A stretch of DNA of 64,000 bases from Glycomyces buryatensis (GTDB lineage Bacteria > Actinomycetota > Actinomycetes > Mycobacteriales > Micromonosporaceae): positions 62,001 to 126,000 of the forward strand of contig NZ_STGY01000073.1 in assembly GCF_004912275.1 (NCBI RefSeq). The letters are read 5' to 3'. Shown in pieces: positions 39,468 to 62,399 of the stretch; position 1 is the stretch's first letter; the number at the start of each line of letters is the position of its first letter. The notes under the pieces were generated by a model, which had not been told where the DNA came from, made no database searches, and saw nothing but the letters and a program-made list of their open reading frames with translations. The position numbers and the translations under genes were made by a program.

Positions 39468-40937
39468 GTGAGCGCTCTTGAACCCGAGGATTTCGCTGCT
39501 ACCGTCCGGCACTGGCTTGAGGTCTCGGGCTTCTCGCGCAAGAAGCTGGCGAAGGAGGCGAACTTCTCCTCCGGGTACGTCTCCAAAGTGGCCTCCGGGG
39601 CCGAACGCGGCTCGCTCGACTTCGCGGCCCGCGCAGACACGGCGATGGCCACTGGTGGCGCGCTCGAACGGGCATGGCAGGCGCACCACGGTCAAGGAGC
39701 AAAGCCGTCCGCAGAACCGATCGTCTCGGCACCAGGGGGATTGATCGTCGACCAGGACATCGCCGAACTCCACTATGGTCACGGGCAGTACCGGCTGACG
39801 CAGCGGCGCCGGATCGTCAACACCGGAAGCGAGCCGATCACCCGCTACCTGATCCGCATCGCCGTCGACAAATTCCCCGGCGAGCCGGAGCGGTCCAATG
39901 CCCACTACCGGGAGCATCCGCTTCGCTGGGAGGACCTCAATCTCGAAGCGTGGTGCGGGAGTGGCCGGACCGAGCCGATCACGTGGACCGTCCAGCACGA
40001 CCGTGACTCTTTCAAGGAGGTGTGGCTGTCCTTCCGTGGCGCGCAGGGACGGCGGCTGCCGATCTACCCCGGCGAGGCCGGGTGGATCGAGTACACGTAC
40101 ACGGTGCCCGAAGGTCAGTGGGGCAACTGGTTTCGCCGGGCCGTCCGCCTGCCGACCAACCATCTTGGAGTGCGGTTGGACATGCCCGCCGACCGGGCAC
40201 CGGAGGTGTGGGGCACGCACACGTCGCTCGCCGGTGACGACCTGCCGCTGCCCTCCCCGATCGAAGTCGAGCGAATCGGAGACCGGTTGACGTACTCGTG
40301 GTCGTGCGAGAACCCGCCTTTGCACGCCCGGTACACGATGCAGTGGCGTTGGTCTGCTGGCGCTTACGATGAGCCGATGCAGACGCCGAGTCAGGTCATG
40401 GCGGACCTGGGGATCGTCCAGGACCCCGACGCCGTCTTGCGCCGCACTGCTCGGCGCTTCAATCTCCCGGCCGAGGCCGAGCAGGTGCGCGATGTCGTGG
40501 CGCGGCTCGAAGCTGCCGCCGAGCAGATCACGAAGGTCCATGATTTCACTGGCAAAGGGCGAGGCTTGGCGGCTCCGCAAATCGGAGTCGATGCCGCCGC
40601 CGCTGTCGTCTACACGCCCGGCGCAGTCGCACCGCTCGTGTTGTTGAACCCCGTTGTCGTCGAGACCAGCGCCGAAACGGACATGCAATACGAGGGTTGC
40701 TTGAGTTTCTTCGACACGCGCTCTCGGATTCCTCGGCCGCTCGTAGCCCACATCGAGCACACCGGCCTCGATGGCACTCGACGGATTACGGTCTTCGATC
40801 AGGGCATCGCCCGCCTGGTCCTACACGAAGTGGACCACCTTCACGGGGTGCTGTGCAAAGACCGCCTACCCGAAGGCGAAGAACCCACACCGATCGAAGA
40901 ATACCGAGGGACCGGCTCGGCCTGGCAGTACAAGTAA
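39468..40937 (+). CDS. XRE HTH protein fused to a peptide deformylase domain
   Basis: A 489-residue fusion. Residues 1-70 form an XRE-type helix-turn-helix (WLEVSGFSRKKLAKEANFSSGYVSKVASG). Residues about 95-300 are a strand-rich region of unknown family. Residues about 300-489 are a peptide deformylase with all three family motifs: GRGLAAPQIG (364-373), EGCLS (409-413, metal Cys411) and HEVDH (453-457, two metal His and catalytic Glu454). The start GTG 39468 follows CGGAGG; the upstream frame lacks a site. Deformylase removes the N-formyl group from new proteins. Why it is coupled to a DNA-binding and a middle domain is unknown; a sensor or resistance role is inference. Confidence 0.82.
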   Translation: MSALEPEDFAATVRHWLEVSGFSRKKLAKEANFSSGYVSKVASGAERGSLDFAARADTAMATGGALERAWQAHHGQGAKPSAEPIVSAPGGLIVDQDIAELHYGHGQYRLTQRRRIVNTGSEPITRYLIRIAVDKFPGEPERSNAHYREHPLRWEDLNLEAWCGSGRTEPITWTVQHDRDSFKEVWLSFRGAQGRRLPIYPGEAGWIEYTYTVPEGQWGNWFRRAVRLPTNHLGVRLDMPADRAPEVWGTHTSLAGDDLPLPSPIEVERIGDRLTYSWSCENPPLHARYTMQWRWSAGAYDEPMQTPSQVMADLGIVQDPDAVLRRTARRFNLPAEAEQVRDVVARLEAAAEQITKVHDFTGKGRGLAAPQIGVDAAAAVVYTPGAVAPLVLLNPVVVETSAETDMQYEGCLSFFDTRSRIPRPLVAHIEHTGLDGTRRITVFDQGIARLVLHEVDHLHGVLCKDRLPEGEEPTPIEEYRGTGSAWQYK

Positions 40938-46653: not shown

Positions 46654-47202
46654 TCAACGATCCTGTTCCGAGGTTTCACCGCTCCAGTCCTGCACGGGCA
46701 TTTCCGGCTGAGGTGCCCATCGGGCACCAACCGAGTTCTCCTGTTCCGCAGGTAGATCAGGTCGCTGACCTGTGGTCGCGTATTCCTGCGCCAGGCGGAT
46801 GGCCTCGGGGATGCTCACCCGCGCTTCTGAAGCCGCAACGTGAACCAGGTTCTCACTCGAGTCGACCATGACCGTGATGTCCGCGCCGGGGATATCGGGA
46901 TCGACCGCGATCAGGCCCTCAGGAAGCCAGCACACGGCGGCGGCGCCGATGGTCTCGGCCGTTACTTCGGGAAGCGTCTCGATCTCCTCCATGGAGGCCA
47001 CTGGCACCCCGCCTGGCTCGGGGTCAAGGTCGAGGCGCAGCGTCATGTCGTCGCGTTCGGCTCCGATCGGTCCGAGCCACATGGTGATCCCGCGTGTGCC
47101 GTGCGGGTTGACCATGTTCAGCGTCTCCACGATGAGTGAGGCGATCTCGGCGGGGTCTGTGACGTCCTCGCTGGCGACGTCCCATGCGATGCGCGCGCTC
47201 AT
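46654..47202 (-). CDS. Probable Imm1-type immunity protein for the adjacent deaminase
   Basis: The 182-residue acidic protein has TRGITMWLGPIGAERDDMTLRLDLD, PGGVPVASMEEIE and PEGLIAVDPDIPGADITVMVD, a strand pattern like Imm1-type immunity proteins that neighbour DddA-like deaminases in actinobacteria. ATG 47202 overlaps the toxin stop (ATGA), so toxin and immunity are translated together. The family name is from pattern and context; a profile search would settle it. Confidence 0.6.
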   Translation of the reverse strand: MSARIAWDVASEDVTDPAEIASLIVETLNMVNPHGTRGITMWLGPIGAERDDMTLRLDLDPEPGGVPVASMEEIETLPEVTAETIGAAAVCWLPEGLIAVDPDIPGADITVMVDSSENLVHVAASEARVSIPEAIRLAQEYATTGQRPDLPAEQENSVGARWAPQPEMPVQDWSGETSEQDR

Positions 47203-48716
47203 GCGATTGCCTTTCCATTGCCGTCGTAAGTGCCGTAGAGCTGGGTTCCCGACTCGCATTTTACGTAGATCATGACCTTTGCCCCGGTCGGGATGAGGTC
47301 GGGGAACACCGCGTCGCAGCCGCGGAGGCCTCCGCATGGCTGGTTGTTGATCACGGCGACAACCGGTCCCGCCGCGGGTCGGGAGTCGCGGATCGCTGCG
47401 GCGAGTTTGGCTTCAGCGTGGTCCATGATGATCAGCCGCTTATAAGCAGTCTTCAGGCCCTCGGCTGCTGAGCGGTCGCGTCCGCTTTCGAAACGGACCG
47501 CGTCGCCGTTCTCGTTGTCGTCGTACGCGAACACGACAGTCGTCTTGCCCTTGCCTCCGGGCGGTAGTCGTTCGGCCAGGTCATGCACGAGTTTCGGCAC
47601 CGGCTCGGGCCCACTTGGCTGGGGTGGGGCCGGTGGCGGCGGGCTCGGTGGCTTGCCGCCATGTCCACCCGCTCCGGCCCCACCTGTCGATCCACCACCG
47701 AGCAGGGTTCCCTCGATGTAGCGCTCGATTGTGTCGTCGCCAGCGGCATAGAGCGCGAGCGCCTCTTCGAGTTTCTCCTGGGACTGGGCGAGCTGGCCGA
47801 GTCCCTCTTCCACCAGCGGATTGGTCGACCCGTCGGTGTCCATGCGGAGCTGGGTGGCGAGCTGCTCGACCACATCGCGAATGGCTCGAACCGTGGCCTG
47901 CGTCCGCTCGCTTTCCTCAATGGCGGCTCGCAGGTCGGCGATGGTCTCGCTCAGCGTCGACACGAGGGCGGCTCCAGGGGCTTCCGAGACGGGGTTGGGG
48001 GAAGTGTACAAACCCGTGAGTCGTAATGCTTTGAGCCAGACGCAAAGGCGCTCTTCGGCTCGACGGCGGCAGAGACCGACCGCGAGGGGTGTGCGACCGG
48101 TTCGGCGGGCGATCGCGGTCAGGTGTTCGCCGTCGAAGCGGGTGGCGCCGATCAGGTGCGCCTCGGCTCGGTCGATGACGCCGGCAGTGACGGCGCTGCC
48201 GAGAATGAGGTCGACGTGGCCGGTGCCGACGCGCTCGGGCTCTTCGCGAAGGAGTGCTTCTTCGGACTCGTGGCGTTGCCGCCTGTTCGACCGGCCGAGG
48301 CTTCGGGCGGCGGTATGCGCCGCCTGGCACAGCTGCGAGCAGATGGCACGGCGGGCCAGGTCCACTGTGCTGATCGCGGCGATGAAACCGGTGATCGCTT
48401 CGGCTTCGAGGTCGGCGCGTTCGGTGCCGGGGCTTTGGAGTTTGGCGCGGCCCGCAGCTCTTCGCAGGCCGGGGACGGCGAGTCCGAGCAGGAGCAGGTG
48501 CAGCGGCTCCGCCTCGTCGGTATCGCGGACTCTGCGGATGAGGTCGGCCCAGACCTGATCCCGGATGGCGAGCGGGGCGGCGTCGTCGAGCAGCCACCGG
48601 CGGAACCTCCCCGGAGCGGCCGATGCGTCTGGCGCGCTGGGGTCGTGGTGGTCGCCCAGGGGTAGCGGTCCCTCGATGTCGCAGAAGTGGGCGTCGATCA
48701 GATTGAGCGGCAGCAT
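47199..48716 (-). CDS. Sigma-factor-like protein fused to a DddA-like (SCP1.201) deaminase toxin
   Basis: A 505-residue protein in one unbroken frame. Residues about 15-225 resemble the sigma-70-like proteins of actinobacterial conjugative elements, ending with a region-4-like HTH (GEHLTAIARRTGRTPLAVGLCRRRAEERL). Residues about 250-335 are a helical segment (TIADLRAAIEESERTQATV onward) as found at the front of stand-alone deaminases; a Gly/Pro linker follows. Residues about 395-505 form the deaminase: GKGKTTVVFA, HAE (433-435), QPCGGLRGC (Cys461, Cys467) and a KVMIYV strand. DddA-like enzymes convert cytosine to uracil in double-stranded DNA. ATG 48716 follows GGGAGG. An internal GTG near 47968 could start the toxin alone. 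Confidence 0.75.
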   Translation of the reverse strand: MLPLNLIDAHFCDIEGPLPLGDHHDPSAPDASAAPGRFRRWLLDDAAPLAIRDQVWADLIRRVRDTDEAEPLHLLLLGLAVPGLRRAAGRAKLQSPGTERADLEAEAITGFIAAISTVDLARRAICSQLCQAAHTAARSLGRSNRRQRHESEEALLREEPERVGTGHVDLILGSAVTAGVIDRAEAHLIGATRFDGEHLTAIARRTGRTPLAVGLCRRRAEERLCVWLKALRLTGLYTSPNPVSEAPGAALVSTLSETIADLRAAIEESERTQATVRAIRDVVEQLATQLRMDTDGSTNPLVEEGLGQLAQSQEKLEEALALYAAGDDTIERYIEGTLLGGGSTGGAGAGGHGGKPPSPPPPAPPQPSGPEPVPKLVHDLAERLPPGGKGKTTVVFAYDDNENGDAVRFESGRDRSAAEGLKTAYKRLIIMDHAEAKLAAAIRDSRPAAGPVVAVINNQPCGGLRGCDAVFPDLIPTGAKVMIYVKCESGTQLYGTYDGNGKAIA

Positions 48717-48777
48717 GGCCGTTCCTCCCTTGATTCGCGTTCGCCGCGTCAGCGGCCGGGAGTCCATCGCGCCACGT

Positions 48778-49134: not shown

Positions 49135-49533
49135 GTGGAACCGACCTTCAACGACCGCTCCGATTCGGGGCGCTGGCGCGTCGTGGCGGCGCATCCGGCG
49201 ACGGCCTGGGCGCTGCGCCTAGGGCTGATCGTGGCCGGGACCGCCGTGGTGATCGCGCTGGACGCGGGCCCGGCACTGGCGCAGACGACGACCGAGACGG
49301 TCACGGCCATGCTCAATCGGATCCGGAACTGGATCATCGGTCTGGCCGGCCTGTTCGCGGTCATCATGGCGACGATCGCCGGGGTCCGCTACATGCTCTC
49401 CTCCGACCCCGCGCAGACGGAGAAGGCGAAGTCGGCGCTGCGGGCCGCGGGGGTGGGTTTGGCGCTGGTGCTGTTCGCGCCGGTGCTGATCAAGCTCCTC
49501 GAATACTTCGTCGGCTCCCACTCCTACGAGTGA
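49135..49533 (+). CDS. VirB2/TrbC-like small membrane protein of the transfer system
   Basis: The 132-residue protein has a signal-like first helix (LRLGLIVAGTAVVIALDAGPALAQ), then two helices (IIGLAGLFAVIMATIAGVRYMLSS; GVGLALVLFAPVLIKLLEYFV) with a short charged loop (DPAQTEKAKSALR). This matches VirB2-like pilin candidates at the head of actinobacterial conjugation operons. GTG 49135 has GGGAGG upstream. The TrbL-like gene begins 9 bases on. Confidence 0.75.
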   Translation: MEPTFNDRSDSGRWRVVAAHPATAWALRLGLIVAGTAVVIALDAGPALAQTTTETVTAMLNRIRNWIIGLAGLFAVIMATIAGVRYMLSSDPAQTEKAKSALRAAGVGLALVLFAPVLIKLLEYFVGSHSYE

Positions 49534-51917: not shown

Positions 51918-53668
51918 GCGGCATGACTTGGCTGCGGAGCCTGTGGGGATGGGGCGAATCGTTCGACGCCTCGGTTGAACTGTGGCCCGATGCGGTGCGC
52001 CCCGAAGCCCGCCGGGTGCAGACCGGGGACGGTTGGGCGGCCACGCTGATCCTGGTCGGCTGGCCCGGCATGGTCTCCTATGCGTGGCTGGAGCCGCTGG
52101 TCGACCAGGCCACCAGACTCGAAGTCGCCCTACACCTCGACGGTGTTCCCGCCGAGGTCGCGGCGGCGCGGCTGCGCAAGCAGCGGGCCCGGATGGAGTC
52201 GACGCAGCGGTACGTGGCCGCGAAGGAACACCTCGACGACCCCCGACTCGACGCCGCCGCCAGCGATGCGGCCGGACTCGCCTCCCGGATCGCCCGCGGC
52301 GACACCCGGTTGCACGCGATGAGCTTCTATGTCACCGTCCACGCCCCCACACCAGAAACGCTGGACCGCTCCTGCGCGCGGCTTCGTGCGACGGCGGCGG
52401 CGATGATGTGCGACCTGCGCCCGGCCACCTTCCGGCCCCTCCAAGGCCTGACCTCCACCGTCCCGGTCGGCATCGATTCGCTCGGCGCGCGCCGGACCGT
52501 CGACACCGATACCGCCGCCGCGGCCTTCCCGTTCGGCTCCCCGGACGTGCCCGGCCCGCCCGGCGAACAGGCGGTCCTCTACGGATTGAACGCGATCAGC
52601 GGCGCCCCGGTGCTGTGGGACCGGTGGGCCGAGGACAACTACAACTCGATCGTCGTCGCCAGGTCCGGCGCCGGAAAGTCGTATTTCGCGAAGACGACCA
52701 TGTTGCGCGAGCTCTACCAGGACACCTCGGTGACCGTCATCGACCCCGAAGGCGAATACCGGGCATTGGCGGACGCGGTCGGCGGCACGGTCTGCGCCCC
52801 GGGCGCGGCCGGCGAGGCGATCAACCCCCTCGCGCTCCCGACCCAGGCGAGTCCGGAGGACCTGACTCGCCGCAAGCTCTTCTGCGCCACCGTCATCGAA
52901 ACCGCACTCGGCGAGAACCTGTCGAGCACCGAAGCCGCCGCCGTGGACGCGGCAGTCGCGGCCGCCTATGCCGCCTGCGGCATCACCGACGAACCGGGCA
53001 CCTGGGGCCGCAAACCGCCGATCATGCCGGAGGTGACTGCGCTCCTTGCCGAGGGCTCGGAGATCGGGGCGAGCTTGGCGGCAAGGTTGGCCCCGTATGT
53101 GACCGGCGGCCTCTCCAGCCTGCTCGCCGGGCACACCGAGACCGCTTCCACCGCTGGGCCAGGCCAGTTGCACGTCTTCGACCTGTCGGCAGTGCCCGAA
53201 GAGATGGCGGCCGTGACCACGCTCGTGGTGCTCGATGCGATCTGGCGGAGCCTGCGCACCGATGGCGTCCGGCGGCTGGTCGCGGTCGATGAGGCGTGGC
53301 TGCTGCTGCGCGACGGGGCCGGAGCCGCCTTCCTCAGCCGTCTCGCCAAGTCCGCGAGAAAGAGGAACGCGGGGTTGATGGTGATCACCCAGGATGCCGA
53401 CGACCTGTTGTCGACCAGCTTGGGCCACACCGTCATCGCCAACAGCGCCACCCAAGTGCTCTTGCGACAGGCCCCGCAGTCGATAGCGGCGGTCACCGCG
53501 GCGTTCGCGCTCACCGACACCGAGGCCGACCTGATCGCCAGCGCGCGTCGGGGTGATGCGTTGCTGCTCGCGGGACAGACGCGGGTGGCGTTCTCCACGA
53601 TCGCCGCGCCCGAGGAGCACCGGCTGTGCCTGACCGGACTCGAAGCCTTCGGCGACGGGGGGCGGTGA
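51914..53668 (+). CDS. VirB4-like conjugation ATPase
   Basis: The ATPase energises assembly of the type IV secretion channel. The 584-residue protein has an N-terminal domain followed by the motor: Walker A SGAGKS (251-256), VIDPEGEYRALADAVGG, Walker B with LVAVDEAWLLL and the sensor SARKRNAGLMVITQDADDLL. ATG 51914 lies on the PrgI stop; the much longer open frame upstream overlaps PrgI and is rejected. Confidence 0.9.
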   Translation: MSGMTWLRSLWGWGESFDASVELWPDAVRPEARRVQTGDGWAATLILVGWPGMVSYAWLEPLVDQATRLEVALHLDGVPAEVAAARLRKQRARMESTQRYVAAKEHLDDPRLDAAASDAAGLASRIARGDTRLHAMSFYVTVHAPTPETLDRSCARLRATAAAMMCDLRPATFRPLQGLTSTVPVGIDSLGARRTVDTDTAAAAFPFGSPDVPGPPGEQAVLYGLNAISGAPVLWDRWAEDNYNSIVVARSGAGKSYFAKTTMLRELYQDTSVTVIDPEGEYRALADAVGGTVCAPGAAGEAINPLALPTQASPEDLTRRKLFCATVIETALGENLSSTEAAAVDAAVAAAYAACGITDEPGTWGRKPPIMPEVTALLAEGSEIGASLAARLAPYVTGGLSSLLAGHTETASTAGPGQLHVFDLSAVPEEMAAVTTLVVLDAIWRSLRTDGVRRLVAVDEAWLLLRDGAGAAFLSRLAKSARKRNAGLMVITQDADDLLSTSLGHTVIANSATQVLLRQAPQSIAAVTAAFALTDTEADLIASARRGDALLLAGQTRVAFSTIAAPEEHRLCLTGLEAFGDGGR

Positions 53669-53672
53669 GGGC

Positions 53673-54782
53673 ATGCGACGCATCATCTCCGCCATCGTCG
53701 TGGCAGTCATGGCCGCCTGCTGCTGCACCGTCGGCGTGGTCGCCACCGCGGCCGAAAGTCTCACGTCCTGGTTCGGGTTCGGATGGTTCGCCGGATGCAG
53801 CGTCGATGCCGGGGCCGTCGCGGCCGATCTGGAGCGCGAATACTCCTCCTACGGTGAGACCGAGATCGCCCACGCGGTCACCATCTACATCACCGGCGCC
53901 GACCTCGGGCTCTCCGAGCGAGCTGTGGTCATCGCCGTAGCGACAGCGATGCAGGAATCCGGGCTTGAGAACCTCGCCAACCCCAACCACCCGGCGTCGC
54001 TGGAGTTGCCCAACGACGGCACCGGCTACGACCACGATTCACTCGGGCTGTTCCAGCAGCGGCCCGCCTCGGGCTGGGGCACCGTCTCAGAGCTCATGGA
54101 CCCCGCCACCGCCGCCACCAAGTTCTACAACGCGCTCACCGACGTCGAGGACTGGGAGACCCGACCCCTGACCGAAGCCGCCCAACTCGTGCAGCGCTCG
54201 GCGTTCCCCGACGCCTACGCCAAACACGAGGACACCGCCGCCGCGATCGTCCAGGGCGTCACCGCGCGCATCAACTGCAACCGGGCCGCAGGATCGGATA
54301 TCTCGGCCGAAGGCTGGACCCATCCCCTCCCCGGCCACGTGGTCACCGGCGGGTTCCGCACCGCCGAGAGGCCGACACATCAAGGCGTGGACCTGCCCGC
54401 CGGCTCCGGCACGCCGATTCTGACCGCCGGGCCCGGCGAGGTCGTCAAGGTCCGCTGCAACGCCCACACCACCTCAGGCGGGGCATATTCGTGCGATGTG
54501 GACGGCTCACCCGACGTCCGTGGCTGCGGCTGGTATGTCGAGATCGCCCACCCCGACGGGACGCTCACCCGCTACTGCCACATGCGGACCGAACCGCCCG
54601 TCGCGGTCGGCGACTCGGTAGCGGCCGGGCAGGTCATCGGCGAGGTCGGCTCCTCTGGGCACTCCTCGGGCCCGCACCTGCACTACGAGACCCATAACCG
54701 CGCCGAGAACCCCGGCTCGGACTCGGCCGTGCCGCCGTTGGATTTCATGGCCGCTCGCGGTGTCCAGTTGGGGGAGGCGTAG
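53673..54782 (+). CDS. Transfer-associated wall hydrolase: transglycosylase-like plus M23 peptidase
   Basis: The 369-residue protein has an N-terminal membrane anchor (IISAIVVAVMAACCC), a lysozyme-like domain at about 50-200 (AVATAMQESGL, DSLGLFQQRPASGWGT: the ES and GLFQ motifs) and a C-terminal M23/LytM domain with HQGVD (His236, Asp240) and HLHYE (His335-Leu-His337), the zinc and catalytic residues. Such VirB1-like enzymes open the wall for the channel. It follows virB4 after 4 bases. Confidence 0.88.
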   Translation: MRRIISAIVVAVMAACCCTVGVVATAAESLTSWFGFGWFAGCSVDAGAVAADLEREYSSYGETEIAHAVTIYITGADLGLSERAVVIAVATAMQESGLENLANPNHPASLELPNDGTGYDHDSLGLFQQRPASGWGTVSELMDPATAATKFYNALTDVEDWETRPLTEAAQLVQRSAFPDAYAKHEDTAAAIVQGVTARINCNRAAGSDISAEGWTHPLPGHVVTGGFRTAERPTHQGVDLPAGSGTPILTAGPGEVVKVRCNAHTTSGGAYSCDVDGSPDVRGCGWYVEIAHPDGTLTRYCHMRTEPPVAVGDSVAAGQVIGEVGSSGHSSGPHLHYETHNRAENPGSDSAVPPLDFMAARGVQLGEA

Positions 54783-54787
54783 GCGAC

Positions 54788-57067
54788 ATGAACAATCTCG
54801 TGCACGACCCCTCGATGTGGCTGGCCTTCGCTGCCGCACTCACTGCGGGCGTGGTCGGCCTCGTCCGAATAGCCCTCCACCGCCGTGACGCCCGAACCTG
54901 GCTTCCGGGATCGCGGTATGTCACCATCGCGGCCCCGCCCGAAGTCGACCCGCGCGGCGCAGCTGCACTGTGGACGCATCTGGGCGCGATCAGCCGATCG
55001 CCTTGGCAGCGATTCTGGTTCGGTCAGCCGCATGTCGTCTTCGAGTACCGGTTCTGCGGTGCGGAGATGACCGTCCGGATCTGGGTGCCCACGCCGGTGA
55101 GCGCCGGGGTCGTCGCCGACGCCGTCCAAGCCGCATGGCCGGGAGCGAAGACCGAGACCACCGACGCCGAACCACCGCTGCCAGAAGAAGACCATGCAGC
55201 CGGTGGGCGCTTGGTCTGGTCGGGGACGGCCGCCGAGCCGGTCACCGCCGATGCTCCGGTCGATCCGCTCCGCGGCCTCATCGCCGCCGGCCTCGCCGGT
55301 CGTCGAGACGCCGTCGCCCTCGTACAGGTCTCGGCCCGACCCGCATCCCCTCGCGAAACCCGCCTCCTACGCCGAGCTGCCGACGGCGCCCAGCGACGGA
55401 CGAGCCTGATCGACGAGATCCTGGACCTGTTCACCCTCACCGGGCCGAAAACCACCGCCACAATCAGGGAACCGGCCACACTTACCCGGTACCGCAGGGC
55501 CGCGGCCGAACGGTCCGGCGGCCTGCTCTGGTCGGTCGGCCTGCGCTGGGCCGTCACCGGGAACACGGCGAGCGGGCAGGCAGCTGAAGCCGCCGCCTCC
55601 CGGCTCGGCGGTGCGGCAGCGGCGCTCACCGGCGCGGCCGGAATACGGCGCCGCCGCATGGCGAACCTCGCCGGGAGATGCAATACCTGGGTCCACGACA
55701 GCGCCATCACCTTGACCTGCAACGAGACCGGCGCCCTCGCGCACCTACCCTCCGATGAGGTCGTACCCGCGATGGAACGAGCCGGAGCCCGCACGGTCGC
55801 CGCACCAGTCCACGCGGTGAACGGCGGCCGGAACACCAAGACGCTCGGCATCGGCCCCGACGGCCGACGACTCGCCATCCGCGTCACCGACGCCCGCCAC
55901 CACATGCACATCGTCGGCCCCACCGGCTCGGGCAAGTCGGTGCTACTGCACCACATGATCATGAGCGACATCAGGGCGCGCAGGCCCGTGGTCGTCATCG
56001 ACCCCAAAGGCGACCTCGTCAACGACGTGGTCGACAGCCTCGATCCGGACACCGCCAAGAACCGCCTCGTCCTCATCGACCCCTCCGCCCCCGGGCCCCA
56101 CCCCGGACTCGATCCCCTCGCCGGAGCCGACTCCGAAGTAGTCATCGACCAGTTCACCGGAATCTGCCGCCGCATCTGGGAACGACACTGGGGCCCCAGG
56201 GCCGACGACATCCTCCGCAACGCCCTGCGCACGCTCTTCGTCGCCGGTGACCCCGCACTGCGGCACCTGCCCTCACTGCTGACCAACAAGGCCTACCGCG
56301 CGCCCCTGATCGCCGGCATCGACGACCCGATGGTCCTCGGCGGCTTCTGGACATGGTTCGACCAACTCTCACCCACGGTCCAATCCCAAGCCGCCGGGCC
56401 AGTCCTCTCCCGCATCCGGGCACTGCTGGGCCACGAGTTCGTCCGCGACACCATCGGATCACCCGAACGCGGCTTCGACCTCGAAGCCGCATTGAACACC
56501 GACGGCATCGTCCTAGCGCGGCTGCCCAAAGGCCAGCTCGGCGACGACACCGCCCGCCTACTCGGATCGGTACTGACCGCCCGCGTCTGGCAGGCCGCCT
56601 CCGCCCGCGCCCGCATCCCAGAGAACAAACGACGCGACGCCACGCTCTATCTCGACGAATTCCAGAACTTCCTGAACCTGCCCTACGCCGTCGAGGACAT
56701 GCTCGCCGAAGCCCGCGGCCTGCACCTGGGCATGGTGCTGGCCCACCAGCACTGGGCCCAACTCGACCGCCCACTCCAATTCGCCGTCGCGGCCAACGCC
56801 CGCACCAAGGCCTACTTCGCCACCAGCGCCGAGGACGCCCACCTGCTGGCCCGCCACACCGCCCCGAACCTCTCCGAGCACGACCTGGAACACCTGCCCG
56901 CGTACACCATCGCGGCCCGCCCCTTCACAGGCGGCCGCACCCTCCCCGCCTGCACCCTCACCACCCTGCCCCCCGAAACACCGATCGGGCAGGGCGAGTC
57001 CATCCGCGCCCAGGCCGCCGCGCACCCGGCGTTCACACCGCACACGACAAGGAGCCGCCGACCATGA
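54788..57067 (+). CDS. VirD4/TraG-like coupling ATPase
   Basis: The coupling protein recruits DNA to the transfer channel. The 759-residue protein has an N-terminal helix, a domain of about 300 residues and the motor with Walker A GPTGSGKS (377-384), VVIDPKGDLVNDVVD, the Walker B-like ATLYLDEFQNFLNLPYAVEDML and the LAEARGLHLGMVLAHQHWAQL arm (quoted in parts). The end overlaps the next gene by 4 bases (ATGA). Confidence 0.9.
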   Translation: MNNLVHDPSMWLAFAAALTAGVVGLVRIALHRRDARTWLPGSRYVTIAAPPEVDPRGAAALWTHLGAISRSPWQRFWFGQPHVVFEYRFCGAEMTVRIWVPTPVSAGVVADAVQAAWPGAKTETTDAEPPLPEEDHAAGGRLVWSGTAAEPVTADAPVDPLRGLIAAGLAGRRDAVALVQVSARPASPRETRLLRRAADGAQRRTSLIDEILDLFTLTGPKTTATIREPATLTRYRRAAAERSGGLLWSVGLRWAVTGNTASGQAAEAAASRLGGAAAALTGAAGIRRRRMANLAGRCNTWVHDSAITLTCNETGALAHLPSDEVVPAMERAGARTVAAPVHAVNGGRNTKTLGIGPDGRRLAIRVTDARHHMHIVGPTGSGKSVLLHHMIMSDIRARRPVVVIDPKGDLVNDVVDSLDPDTAKNRLVLIDPSAPGPHPGLDPLAGADSEVVIDQFTGICRRIWERHWGPRADDILRNALRTLFVAGDPALRHLPSLLTNKAYRAPLIAGIDDPMVLGGFWTWFDQLSPTVQSQAAGPVLSRIRALLGHEFVRDTIGSPERGFDLEAALNTDGIVLARLPKGQLGDDTARLLGSVLTARVWQAASARARIPENKRRDATLYLDEFQNFLNLPYAVEDMLAEARGLHLGMVLAHQHWAQLDRPLQFAVAANARTKAYFATSAEDAHLLARHTAPNLSEHDLEHLPAYTIAARPFTGGRTLPACTLTTLPPETPIGQGESIRAQAAAHPAFTPHTTRSRRP

Positions 57068-57888
57068 CCGCCACTGTGGCGAAAGACGCCATCGCCTTCA
57101 CCGACCTCTACCAGCGCCTGACCGACAGGGACCTGGCCATCATCGACTGCCTCGGCTCCCACCAGATCCTGACCACACCGATGCTCGCCGACGTCTTCTT
57201 CCCCTCCGAATGGACCGCCCGCGACCGCATCCTCACCCTCAACCGCCTCGGCGTCCTCGCCCGATTTCGGCCCACCAACCGCTCCGCCTACCGCTACACC
57301 CTCGGCGAATGGGGCCACGCGATCTGGGCCCACCGCAACGCCGCCAAACCCCCGACGAAGCAGTGGTGCGCCTGGCACGTCCAGAAACTCGCCGTCTCCC
57401 GCACCCGAATCCACCTGGAGACGGCCAACGGCATCGCCTGCCGCCTCCACGCCGACGCCCAAGCGAACGGCGCCTTCACGGTCGTGCAATGGCTCTGTGA
57501 GACCGAGGCCGCCGCCGCATGTTCGGGGCAGCTCCACCCCGACGCCGGATGGGTCGTCAAGTGGCGCACCGGCCCCCAGCTACGCGCCTGGCACGAACAC
57601 GACCAGGGCACCGAGACCCACACCCAGCTCGCCGCGAAGCTCCGCCGCTACATGCGCTACCGGCCCCTCGACGGTGGTCGCTCACGTACCCTCCTGTTCA
57701 CCCTCCCCAGTGCGGCCCGCGAAAGCAACTTCCACACCACCGCCCGCCGCGAACCCCTCGAATTCCCGGTCGCCACCGCCATCACCGCCCAGGCCGCACG
57801 CCACCCCGCAGGACAGCACTGGAGATTGATCGGTTCCGGGCGCCGCCTGAGCCTCGCCGAAATCGCCCACCGCGCCGAGCAGACCTGA
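57064..57888 (+). CDS. Replication-relaxation family protein
   Basis: The 274-residue protein begins with a winged-helix region (LTDRDLAIIDCLGSHQILTTPMLADVFFPSEWTARDRILTLNRLGVLARF in parts), then HVQKLAVSRTRIHLE and an RPDG-like segment; it fits the Replic_Relax family found on actinobacterial and firmicute mobile elements, implicated in DNA processing for replication or transfer. It is the last gene of the transfer operon. The earlier in-frame starts lie inside the coupling-protein gene and are rejected. Confidence 0.72.
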   Translation: MTATVAKDAIAFTDLYQRLTDRDLAIIDCLGSHQILTTPMLADVFFPSEWTARDRILTLNRLGVLARFRPTNRSAYRYTLGEWGHAIWAHRNAAKPPTKQWCAWHVQKLAVSRTRIHLETANGIACRLHADAQANGAFTVVQWLCETEAAAACSGQLHPDAGWVVKWRTGPQLRAWHEHDQGTETHTQLAAKLRRYMRYRPLDGGRSRTLLFTLPSAARESNFHTTARREPLEFPVATAITAQAARHPAGQHWRLIGSGRRLSLAEIAHRAEQT

Positions 57889-61274: not shown

Positions 61275-62399
61275 ATGCCAACCGACAACAGCCACGACCT
61301 GAGCGCGCTCGCCCGCAGTCAACTGCGTCCCGAACTCGACCCCGCTCCGACTCTGCGCGTCCAGGTTCGAGCGAAGCCACTCCGCCAGGCCCCGGTGTAC
61401 GCGCTCGTGGCGGTGCCCATGAAAGCCCAAGCCGCAGAACTTCGTACGGTCCGGCTCGAAGCCGACGACGACCGGTTGACGCTCACCGGGTTCGACTACA
61501 TCCATGCCCTGTCGGTCTCCCTCACGGTGAAGCGCGGCCCGCTCCACCGCAGCGGCAACGCCGCCGTCGACGCTGCCCGCCTCGCGGCCGCGCTCGACCT
61601 TGTCGGCGGTGAGACCGTCGAAATCACCGTGGCAGGCAAGGCCATCACCGTGATGGCACCGGGTTGCACGGTGCTCTTGGCCGCCGTGCCACTCGACCGA
61701 TTCCCTACCCTGCCACAGCCGATGGACGACGCCGAACGCATCACGGGCGGTGCGCTCGACGGCACGGCGCTCACCGCCATTGCCCGCGCGGGGGCGGTCG
61801 TCGAGACAGGACCTGTTTACGGCGACTGGGCAGCGGTCCGGGTGCGCATCGACGCCTCAGGTATCCGGGCGTGGGCGAAGGCCACGTACGCCGCGACGGT
61901 CCAAACCGTCGAGCACGCCACGGACGCCAGCGACCGGAAGGTGCTCGACGTCGTCATCCCCTCTGAGGCCGTCGTAGCGCTGGCGAAGCCCTTTGCCGAC
62001 ATGGGCGGGGAGTGGAGCACCGCCGTCGTCGCCTGTTCTTCCACGCGGTGGCTGGAGCTGCGCCGCGGCGACGTCACCAGCCGCATCAAGACCCTCGCCA
62101 CCGCCGTCGAAGACCTGTCGGTGATCGGCGGATACCTCGACGAGCCGGTCCAGGCCAGTGCTGCGCAGTCCAAGTCCTCGCTCGCCTCCCGCATCCGCGC
62201 GAATCGGAGCGAGCGCCTGGAGCTGGCCGAGGTGGTCGAGTTCTGGGGCCTGCGCCGCACCGTCGACCGGCGGCTGCTCAAGAAAGCCCTGGCGACCCTC
62301 CCCGACGGTGAGGTCACGCTCGCCCTCACCACCGGCAACCGGCTCCTGCTCACCGCTGGCGGTGCGCGGACCGTCGTCTCAACGGCGCCGCTCTCGTAA
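61275..62399 (+). CDS. DnaN-like sliding-clamp homologue
   Basis: The 374-residue length equals that of a DNA polymerase III beta subunit. Strand patterns match the clamp repeats: LRTVRLEADDDRLTLTGFDYIHALSVSLTV in domain I (in parts), AARLAAALDLVGGETVEITV, and GEVTLALTTGNRLLLTAGGA near the end. Identity to chromosomal DnaN looks low. An element-encoded clamp could load the element's replication or repair proteins. AAGAGGAAAG precedes ATG 61275; the longer frame upstream is a shadow of the zinc-ribbon gene. Confidence 0.65.
   Translation: MPTDNSHDLSALARSQLRPELDPAPTLRVQVRAKPLRQAPVYALVAVPMKAQAAELRTVRLEADDDRLTLTGFDYIHALSVSLTVKRGPLHRSGNAAVDAARLAAALDLVGGETVEITVAGKAITVMAPGCTVLLAAVPLDRFPTLPQPMDDAERITGGALDGTALTAIARAGAVVETGPVYGDWAAVRVRIDASGIRAWAKATYAATVQTVEHATDASDRKVLDVVIPSEAVVALAKPFADMGGEWSTAVVACSSTRWLELRRGDVTSRIKTLATAVEDLSVIGGYLDEPVQASAAQSKSSLASRIRANRSERLELAEVVEFWGLRRTVDRRLLKKALATLPDGEVTLALTTGNRLLLTAGGARTVVSTAPLS

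Follow-up and report, generated by a model that had tools for sequence, protein, structure and literature searches.

Deaminase toxins of the SCP1.201/DddA-like kind (PF14428) go by the name BaDTF1 in those passages of PMC7901873 that treat them, and the pairing of SCP1.201 domains with Imm1 genes is already published, as passages of PMC3482391 describe. Closer to the organism considered here is the umbrella toxin of Streptomyces: according to the relevant parts of PMC11062931, UmbC1 ends in a cytosine deaminase and is followed directly by an Imm1-family gene (UmbD1), and the structure 8w20 is that paper's own deposit. As to conjugative systems, nearly all known type IV functions of Gram-positive bacteria are limited to DNA translocation in the account given in part of a 2025 review (PMC12857230), and the same part also mentions older evidence of type IV effector secretion (PMC12857230).

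Here we compare with these systems a locus of Glycomyces buryatensis in which a single frame runs through a sigma-factor-like unit and a DddA-like deaminase toxin. The whole stretch of DNA that was analysed, 64,000 nucleotides long, is called the window. Two ordinary genes in one frame are the most likely content of this arrangement, and there is a small chance that it is something new.

The long frame and its two units

On the minus strand a frame of 505 aa is open from an ATG at 48716 to a stop ending at 47199 (47199-48716), so that the unbroken frame claimed in an earlier note on this DNA is confirmed. Judged by homology, this single frame is evidently two units with separate histories, here called A and B, each of which appears real beyond chance. 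The joined frame is weaker evidence than the homology of the units, because we estimate that, with the stop of A lost, a 63-base spacer at the local G+C would be stop-free and in phase about 1 time in 5. The features are as follows:

48724..48729, minus strand: Shine-Dalgarno-like GGGAGG ahead of the long frame's ATG (read from the sequence)
48027..48716, minus strand: unit A, residues 1-230, sigma-factor-like (ends of the relatives, structure model)
47964..48026, minus strand: spacer of 63 bases or 21 codons, the first TTA, stop-free (sequence)
47972..47975, minus strand: GGAG, 8 bases 5' of the internal GTG (sequence, compared with relatives)
47199..47963, minus strand: unit B, residues 252-505 plus stop, a 254-aa polymorphic toxin gene (homology, GTG start)
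47679..47963, minus strand: Bn, the helical N-terminal domain of B, common to toxins with other tips and to 86-aa single-domain genes
47604..47696, minus strand: Gly/Pro-rich linker of B (translation)
47202..47603, minus strand: DddA-like deaminase domain with H433-A-E435 and P460-C461-x5-C467 (profile, alignment)
46654..47202, minus strand: 182-aa immunity candidate, homologue of Imm1 members, in ATGA overlap with the toxin at 47199-47202
49135..49533, plus strand: T4SS pilin (TrbC/VirB2), the first called other-strand gene beside A (PF18895, 1.9e-17)
52016..57888, plus strand: TraG P-loop (VirB4-like) ATPase, M23 peptidase, coupling-protein-like ATPase and Replic_Relax protein (Pfam)

A structure model of A matches sigma region 2 of 9wsf (1.7 Å over 77 residues) and the -35-binding domain of SigD in 3vfz (1.8 Å over 62 residues); region 2 and region 4 folds are both present in the model, which supports the sigma-like N-terminus proposed earlier. 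The window's A itself gave no sigma profile match, and its N-terminal part no Pfam or NCBIfam name above cut-off. Among 15 of its relatives, Sigma70_r4 was weak in one (E 0.0097) and HTH_Tnp_1 appeared in two (best 0.00082), and against the PDB the A profile found a sigma factor region weakly (E 0.052). The search of the protein collection, which took candidates of 0.55-1.75 times the query length and scored 8000, returned 30 relatives of A with 201-287 aa. The 12 closest (47-77% identical) stop 0-2 residues beyond position 230, and in L025/L065 the stop codon of A lies exactly at residue 230. The nearest of all, L006, has a start and leader nearly identical to those of the long frame; its A is 77% identical and ends in a stop, followed by a different toxin-like gene that matches no Pfam family, carries an HExxH-like stretch by eye, and was rejected as a carrier of Bn when the Bn profile found no match in it at E 1. 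The nearest genomes are Glycomyces, with contigs G001:C33 and G005:C5 in the same genus as the window. Zero relatives of A turned up in a scan of viral contigs, and tblastn against plasmid and phage records gave zero matches.

Unit B is, to judge from its relatives, a complete small polymorphic toxin: a helical domain, a Pro/Gly linker and a DddA-like deaminase. From its GTG onwards it aligns with standalone proteins 254-274 aa long. The helical segment and the Pro-rich linker noted earlier are thus present, not as separate fused parts, both belonging to the toxin gene. In DddA-like/SCP1.201 deaminases the HxE and PC...C residues are the zinc and catalytic residues. The PF14428 profile matches residues 372-489 (E 3.1e-9, 37.3 bits against a curated cut-off of 25), so that the DddA-like call holds and the failed profile match named in the earlier note as fatal to it did not occur. 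H433, E435, C461 and C467 are invariant in all five aligned sequences; of the motif first given as HAE / PCxxxxxxC, the HAE is right (H433-A-E435) and the cysteine part needs correction to PC-x5-C (C461, C467). Among solved structures the deaminase profile fits 8w20 best (E 7.2e-5), and DddA itself came at E 0.65, ranked behind three kinase entries. Deamination of DNA cytosines by B is predicted.

The domain Bn, of about 90 residues, carries a DddA-like tip in five of 13 members and a CdiA_C tip in three, and three more are single-domain genes of 85-86 aa. One N-terminal domain with differing C-terminal toxins is the mark of polymorphic toxins, and this is what the Bn family contains. It has no good match in Pfam (DUF6244 in 1/13, E 0.095; DUF883 in 2/13, best 0.0035). 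Matches of the helical part and linker to SmhA in the PDB (E 0.014), to phrog_38231 (0.007) and to a tape-measure family (0.04) were discounted as effects of composition. Fifteen of the 22 Glycomyces genomes hold DddA-like domains, at 26 places in all, and among the 20 of these 26 loci that were read, the Bn profile was found in nine and A in the window's only.

Some further arrangements were seen in passing. The window's own genome holds a second, weak DddA-like match (G000:C84:81565-81708, E 7.1e-5, in a 242-aa frame). At L158 (G008:C13) one 403-aa frame, which looks decayed, contains a partial Bn, an atypical-tail deaminase and an Imm1-kin protein. Two loci (L061:3552-4813 and L062:3755-4821) have a standalone Bn gene of 85-86 aa just 5' of a gene that starts with Bn, a pairing that resembles a partner or chaperone arrangement.

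The 182-aa protein downstream (P0002) matches no Pfam family at E 0.1, hence not Imm1 (PF14430) on its own account. Imm1 is matched by five of the six sequences aligned with it (best 2.5e-17); the two nearest share 53% and 51% identity with it. P0002 matched six places in other Glycomyces genomes: five of them adjoin a DddA-like match, and the sixth (G017:C6) lies about 30 kb from one. Lying beside an SCP1.201-type deaminase is a criterion for Imm1, and the window has this arrangement. Since its own Imm1 profile match is absent, we treat P0002 as Imm1 kin and do not file it as a member: the Imm1-type immunity gene suggested earlier keeps its ATGA overlap and its kinship, and lacks the profile match.

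The transfer locus and the distribution of A and B

By its T4SS_pilin, P-loop_TraG, TrwB_AAD_bind and Replic_Relax matches the window holds a conjugative type IV secretion locus, and this locus adjoins the long frame, in agreement with the conjugative context proposed earlier. Pfam matches support the names pilin and TraG/VirB4-like; TrbL and PrgI are working labels for transfer genes in the scans of A loci. A genome scan for A, from which 80 of 237 loci were taken, was combined with 19 of 20 earlier loci (L036 is without A) and the window to give 100 A loci, seven of them fetched twice. By tblastn, 93 of the 100, window included, have a transfer (T4SS) gene within the same stretch (87 of the 93 without repeats). 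The nearest one shares the strand of A in 80 loci and lies on the other strand in 13, each of them a Glycomyces locus. The other seven gave no transfer gene by tblastn; blastp did find some in two of them (L039, L117). Across Actinobacteria (L065-L144), a sigma-fold family with no Pfam match above cut-off was seen to adjoin type IV pilin genes.

In Glycomyces, varied genes lie 3' of A, and they fit a cargo region: the restriction-modification genes HsdM/HsdR directly behind A in L032 and, about 1-4 kb from A, a CHAT protein (L033), a LanC-like protein (L027) and Cas5 (L040). ARAGORN found zero tRNA genes in the window. Elsewhere in the window, the product of 39468-40937 has a polypeptide deformylase domain and, below cut-off, a weak helix-turn-helix match near its N-terminus; beyond the transfer genes, 61275-62399 encodes a 374-aa protein that includes a DNA polymerase III beta N-terminal domain (E 7.5e-6) and may be a second sliding clamp.

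The joining of A to this toxin occurred once in what was searched. There were matches in 53 of 101 genomes, with A-type and B-type matches at different places. Nine alignments run from before residue 230 across the A-B junction, and all contain stops; in one of them (L016) nothing A-like is seen by eye before the stop. Among 5.8 billion proteins, within the length and 8000-candidate limits of the search, no second A-toxin fusion was found: the first whole-protein homology search returned the protein itself (8000 candidates scored), residues 1-240 searched against proteins of 278-884 aa returned only itself and one 279-aa relative (again 8000 scored), and the protein collection has the long frame on one contig only. 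None of the 99 other A loci continues into a toxin of the B kind. No empty site was found, nor a close relative with A beside the same toxin, and the literature, judged mostly by title, yielded no published title describing an A-toxin fusion.

Extension of A past residue 230 is longest in the window (275 codons) among the 100 loci, followed by L094 (204 codons) and L109 (199 codons), both into pilin, and by L105 with 159 codons of Pro/Arg-rich tail. In L094:5800-7143 (Nonomuraea antri) and L109:5989-7287 (Bailinhaonella thermotolerans) the frame of A runs into the T4SS pilin through a similar intervening stretch. A thus does join another neighbour at times, and nothing else speaks as strongly for its tolerating an addition at the C-terminus. 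Tails of at least 20 residues, present in 83 of the 99 other loci, were compared with profiles of this toxin, the deaminase, the immunity protein and four transfer proteins; against the Bn, deaminase and immunity profiles nothing scored better than E 0.009 (Bn, L138).

The earlier note had looked to syntenic elements for a conserved fusion. A and the toxin are separate in 99 A loci, 19 Bn matches and 19 other Glycomyces DddA-like loci, and conservation finds no support there; homologues with the halves always in separate genes, which the same note had set down as counting against the fusion, are what we see.

The junction and how it may be read

The usual end of A is residue 230 and B starts at codon 252. 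An internal GTG had been suggested as a possible toxin start near 47968; the codon exists, and its real position is 47963 (codon 252). Reading 19 Bn matches in L025-L064, we found an in-frame stop 2-63 codons upstream in all 19. The codon aligned to the window's GTG is GTG in seven and ATG in eight of them, and in the other four it is not the start. A Shine-Dalgarno-like site precedes the start in 14 of the 19, against 79 of 662 internal ATG/GTG codons, and by the same rule five of the 19 are without one. Thus the alignment of the toxin starts is observed alongside the homology of the units, the synteny of A and the single occurrence.

The spacer opens with TTA, a codon found three times among the 17,519 codons of 72 window genes (called by a simple script, the long frame included). 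Its third-position G+C is 0.67 (14/21), compared with 0.81 in A, 0.75 in B and a window mean of 0.86; in this respect the spacer is only mildly unusual, since values this low occur in 836 of 16,007 coding stretches of equal length. Its 21 codons look largely non-coding, and most simply they would be the leader of B. Compared with those of standalone toxins, this leader gave one weak 11-base match in 19 comparisons, and no promoter-like site was found in the spacer.

We consider it probable that a toxin-immunity cassette came to lie behind A, that the stop of A was lost, and that production of the toxin still begins at its own start. A is in this reading the sigma-fold partner of actinobacterial type IV secretion loci; in Glycomyces it points away from the transfer genes, which would leave its 3' side open for cargo. 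The cassette would have settled directly there, and the stop of A would have vanished at the junction. Translation of the toxin most likely still begins at its native GTG (47963), with coupling to the immunity gene through the ATGA. Its helical N-terminal domain may serve export or partner binding, its deaminase tip would act on the DNA cytosines of a competitor, and the neighbouring protein would protect the producer. Read-through from A into B may give a minor additional product. The order of events, the translation from the GTG, and the activity, target and export route of the toxin are here inferred from sequence.

That the long frame encodes a true bifunctional protein, in which a sigma-like regulator with a DNA deaminase acts as regulator plus mutator or as a toxin held until release, seems unlikely to us. 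In favour of such a protein are the uninterrupted frame, in which both units are intact, the good ribosome site at ATG 48716, and the continuation of A into pilin in L094 and L109 (by which its C-terminus may tolerate additions), but its single occurrence in what was searched, the toxin's own start and helical domain, and the rare TTA codon in the spacer speak against it. With the halves separate in relatives and the toxin provided with an N-terminal domain and start of its own, the earlier proposal that the element built a functional regulator-mutator fusion is not upheld. A promoter-targeted mutator, the sigma half bringing the deaminase to transfer-gene or host promoters and the immunity protein limiting damage elsewhere, is very improbable in our estimate; if true, it would be the wild counterpart of laboratory fusions of DddA to DNA-binding proteins, of which 3D-seq is reportedly one.

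An error of sequence or assembly near the junction could mask a stop or frame change between genes that are plainly separate. The frame is on one contig only in the protein collection, and there is a stop just within B in another reading frame, so that a minor error might conceal two genes that overlap. However, each unit has its full length and keeps the frame of its relatives as far as the spacer, and the assembly is listed as 100% complete with 0.71% contamination (figures that say little on single bases); we rate such an error as rather improbable. Still harder to credit is that the long protein is an effector passed through the element's type IV channel into recipients. Its gene adjoins pilin, ATPase, coupling-protein-like and Replic_Relax genes, and position alone is in its favour; A has a sigma fold and occurs without a B-kind toxin in 99 other loci, and the 20 stretches L045-L064, chosen for toxins of the B kind, have none of the four tested transfer genes. 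Every one of the 22 Glycomyces genomes searched has EccB, a component of the ESX system, so an ESX/type VII route is no less open than type IV, and type VII export of B is a fair guess.

Comparison with known systems

With the Sigma-70 family A shares, in its structure model, the region 2 and region 4 folds; it differs in that the window's A has no sigma profile match, and promoter recognition by A is only predicted. The A-type sigma-fold family is a candidate switch for turning on conjugation in many Actinobacteria. Were a full-length A-B protein shown, it would be a natural example of a DNA mutator attached to a protein of DNA-binding type.

The toxin-immunity pair adds one more member to a known kind, and its place here is immediately behind a transfer-locus gene. 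B is like the SCP1.201/DddA-like toxins in its profile match and its HAE and PC-x5-C residues, as well as in the Imm1-kin gene directly downstream and an N-terminal domain common to different tips; unlike them, it is read in frame behind a transfer-locus sigma-like protein. To UmbC1 and UmbD1 (Imm1) it is likened by the deaminase structure match to 8w20 and by its Imm1-kin neighbour, but UmbC1, a large ring-and-stalk protein, is part of a secreted particle, whereas B has 254 aa and a short helical domain.
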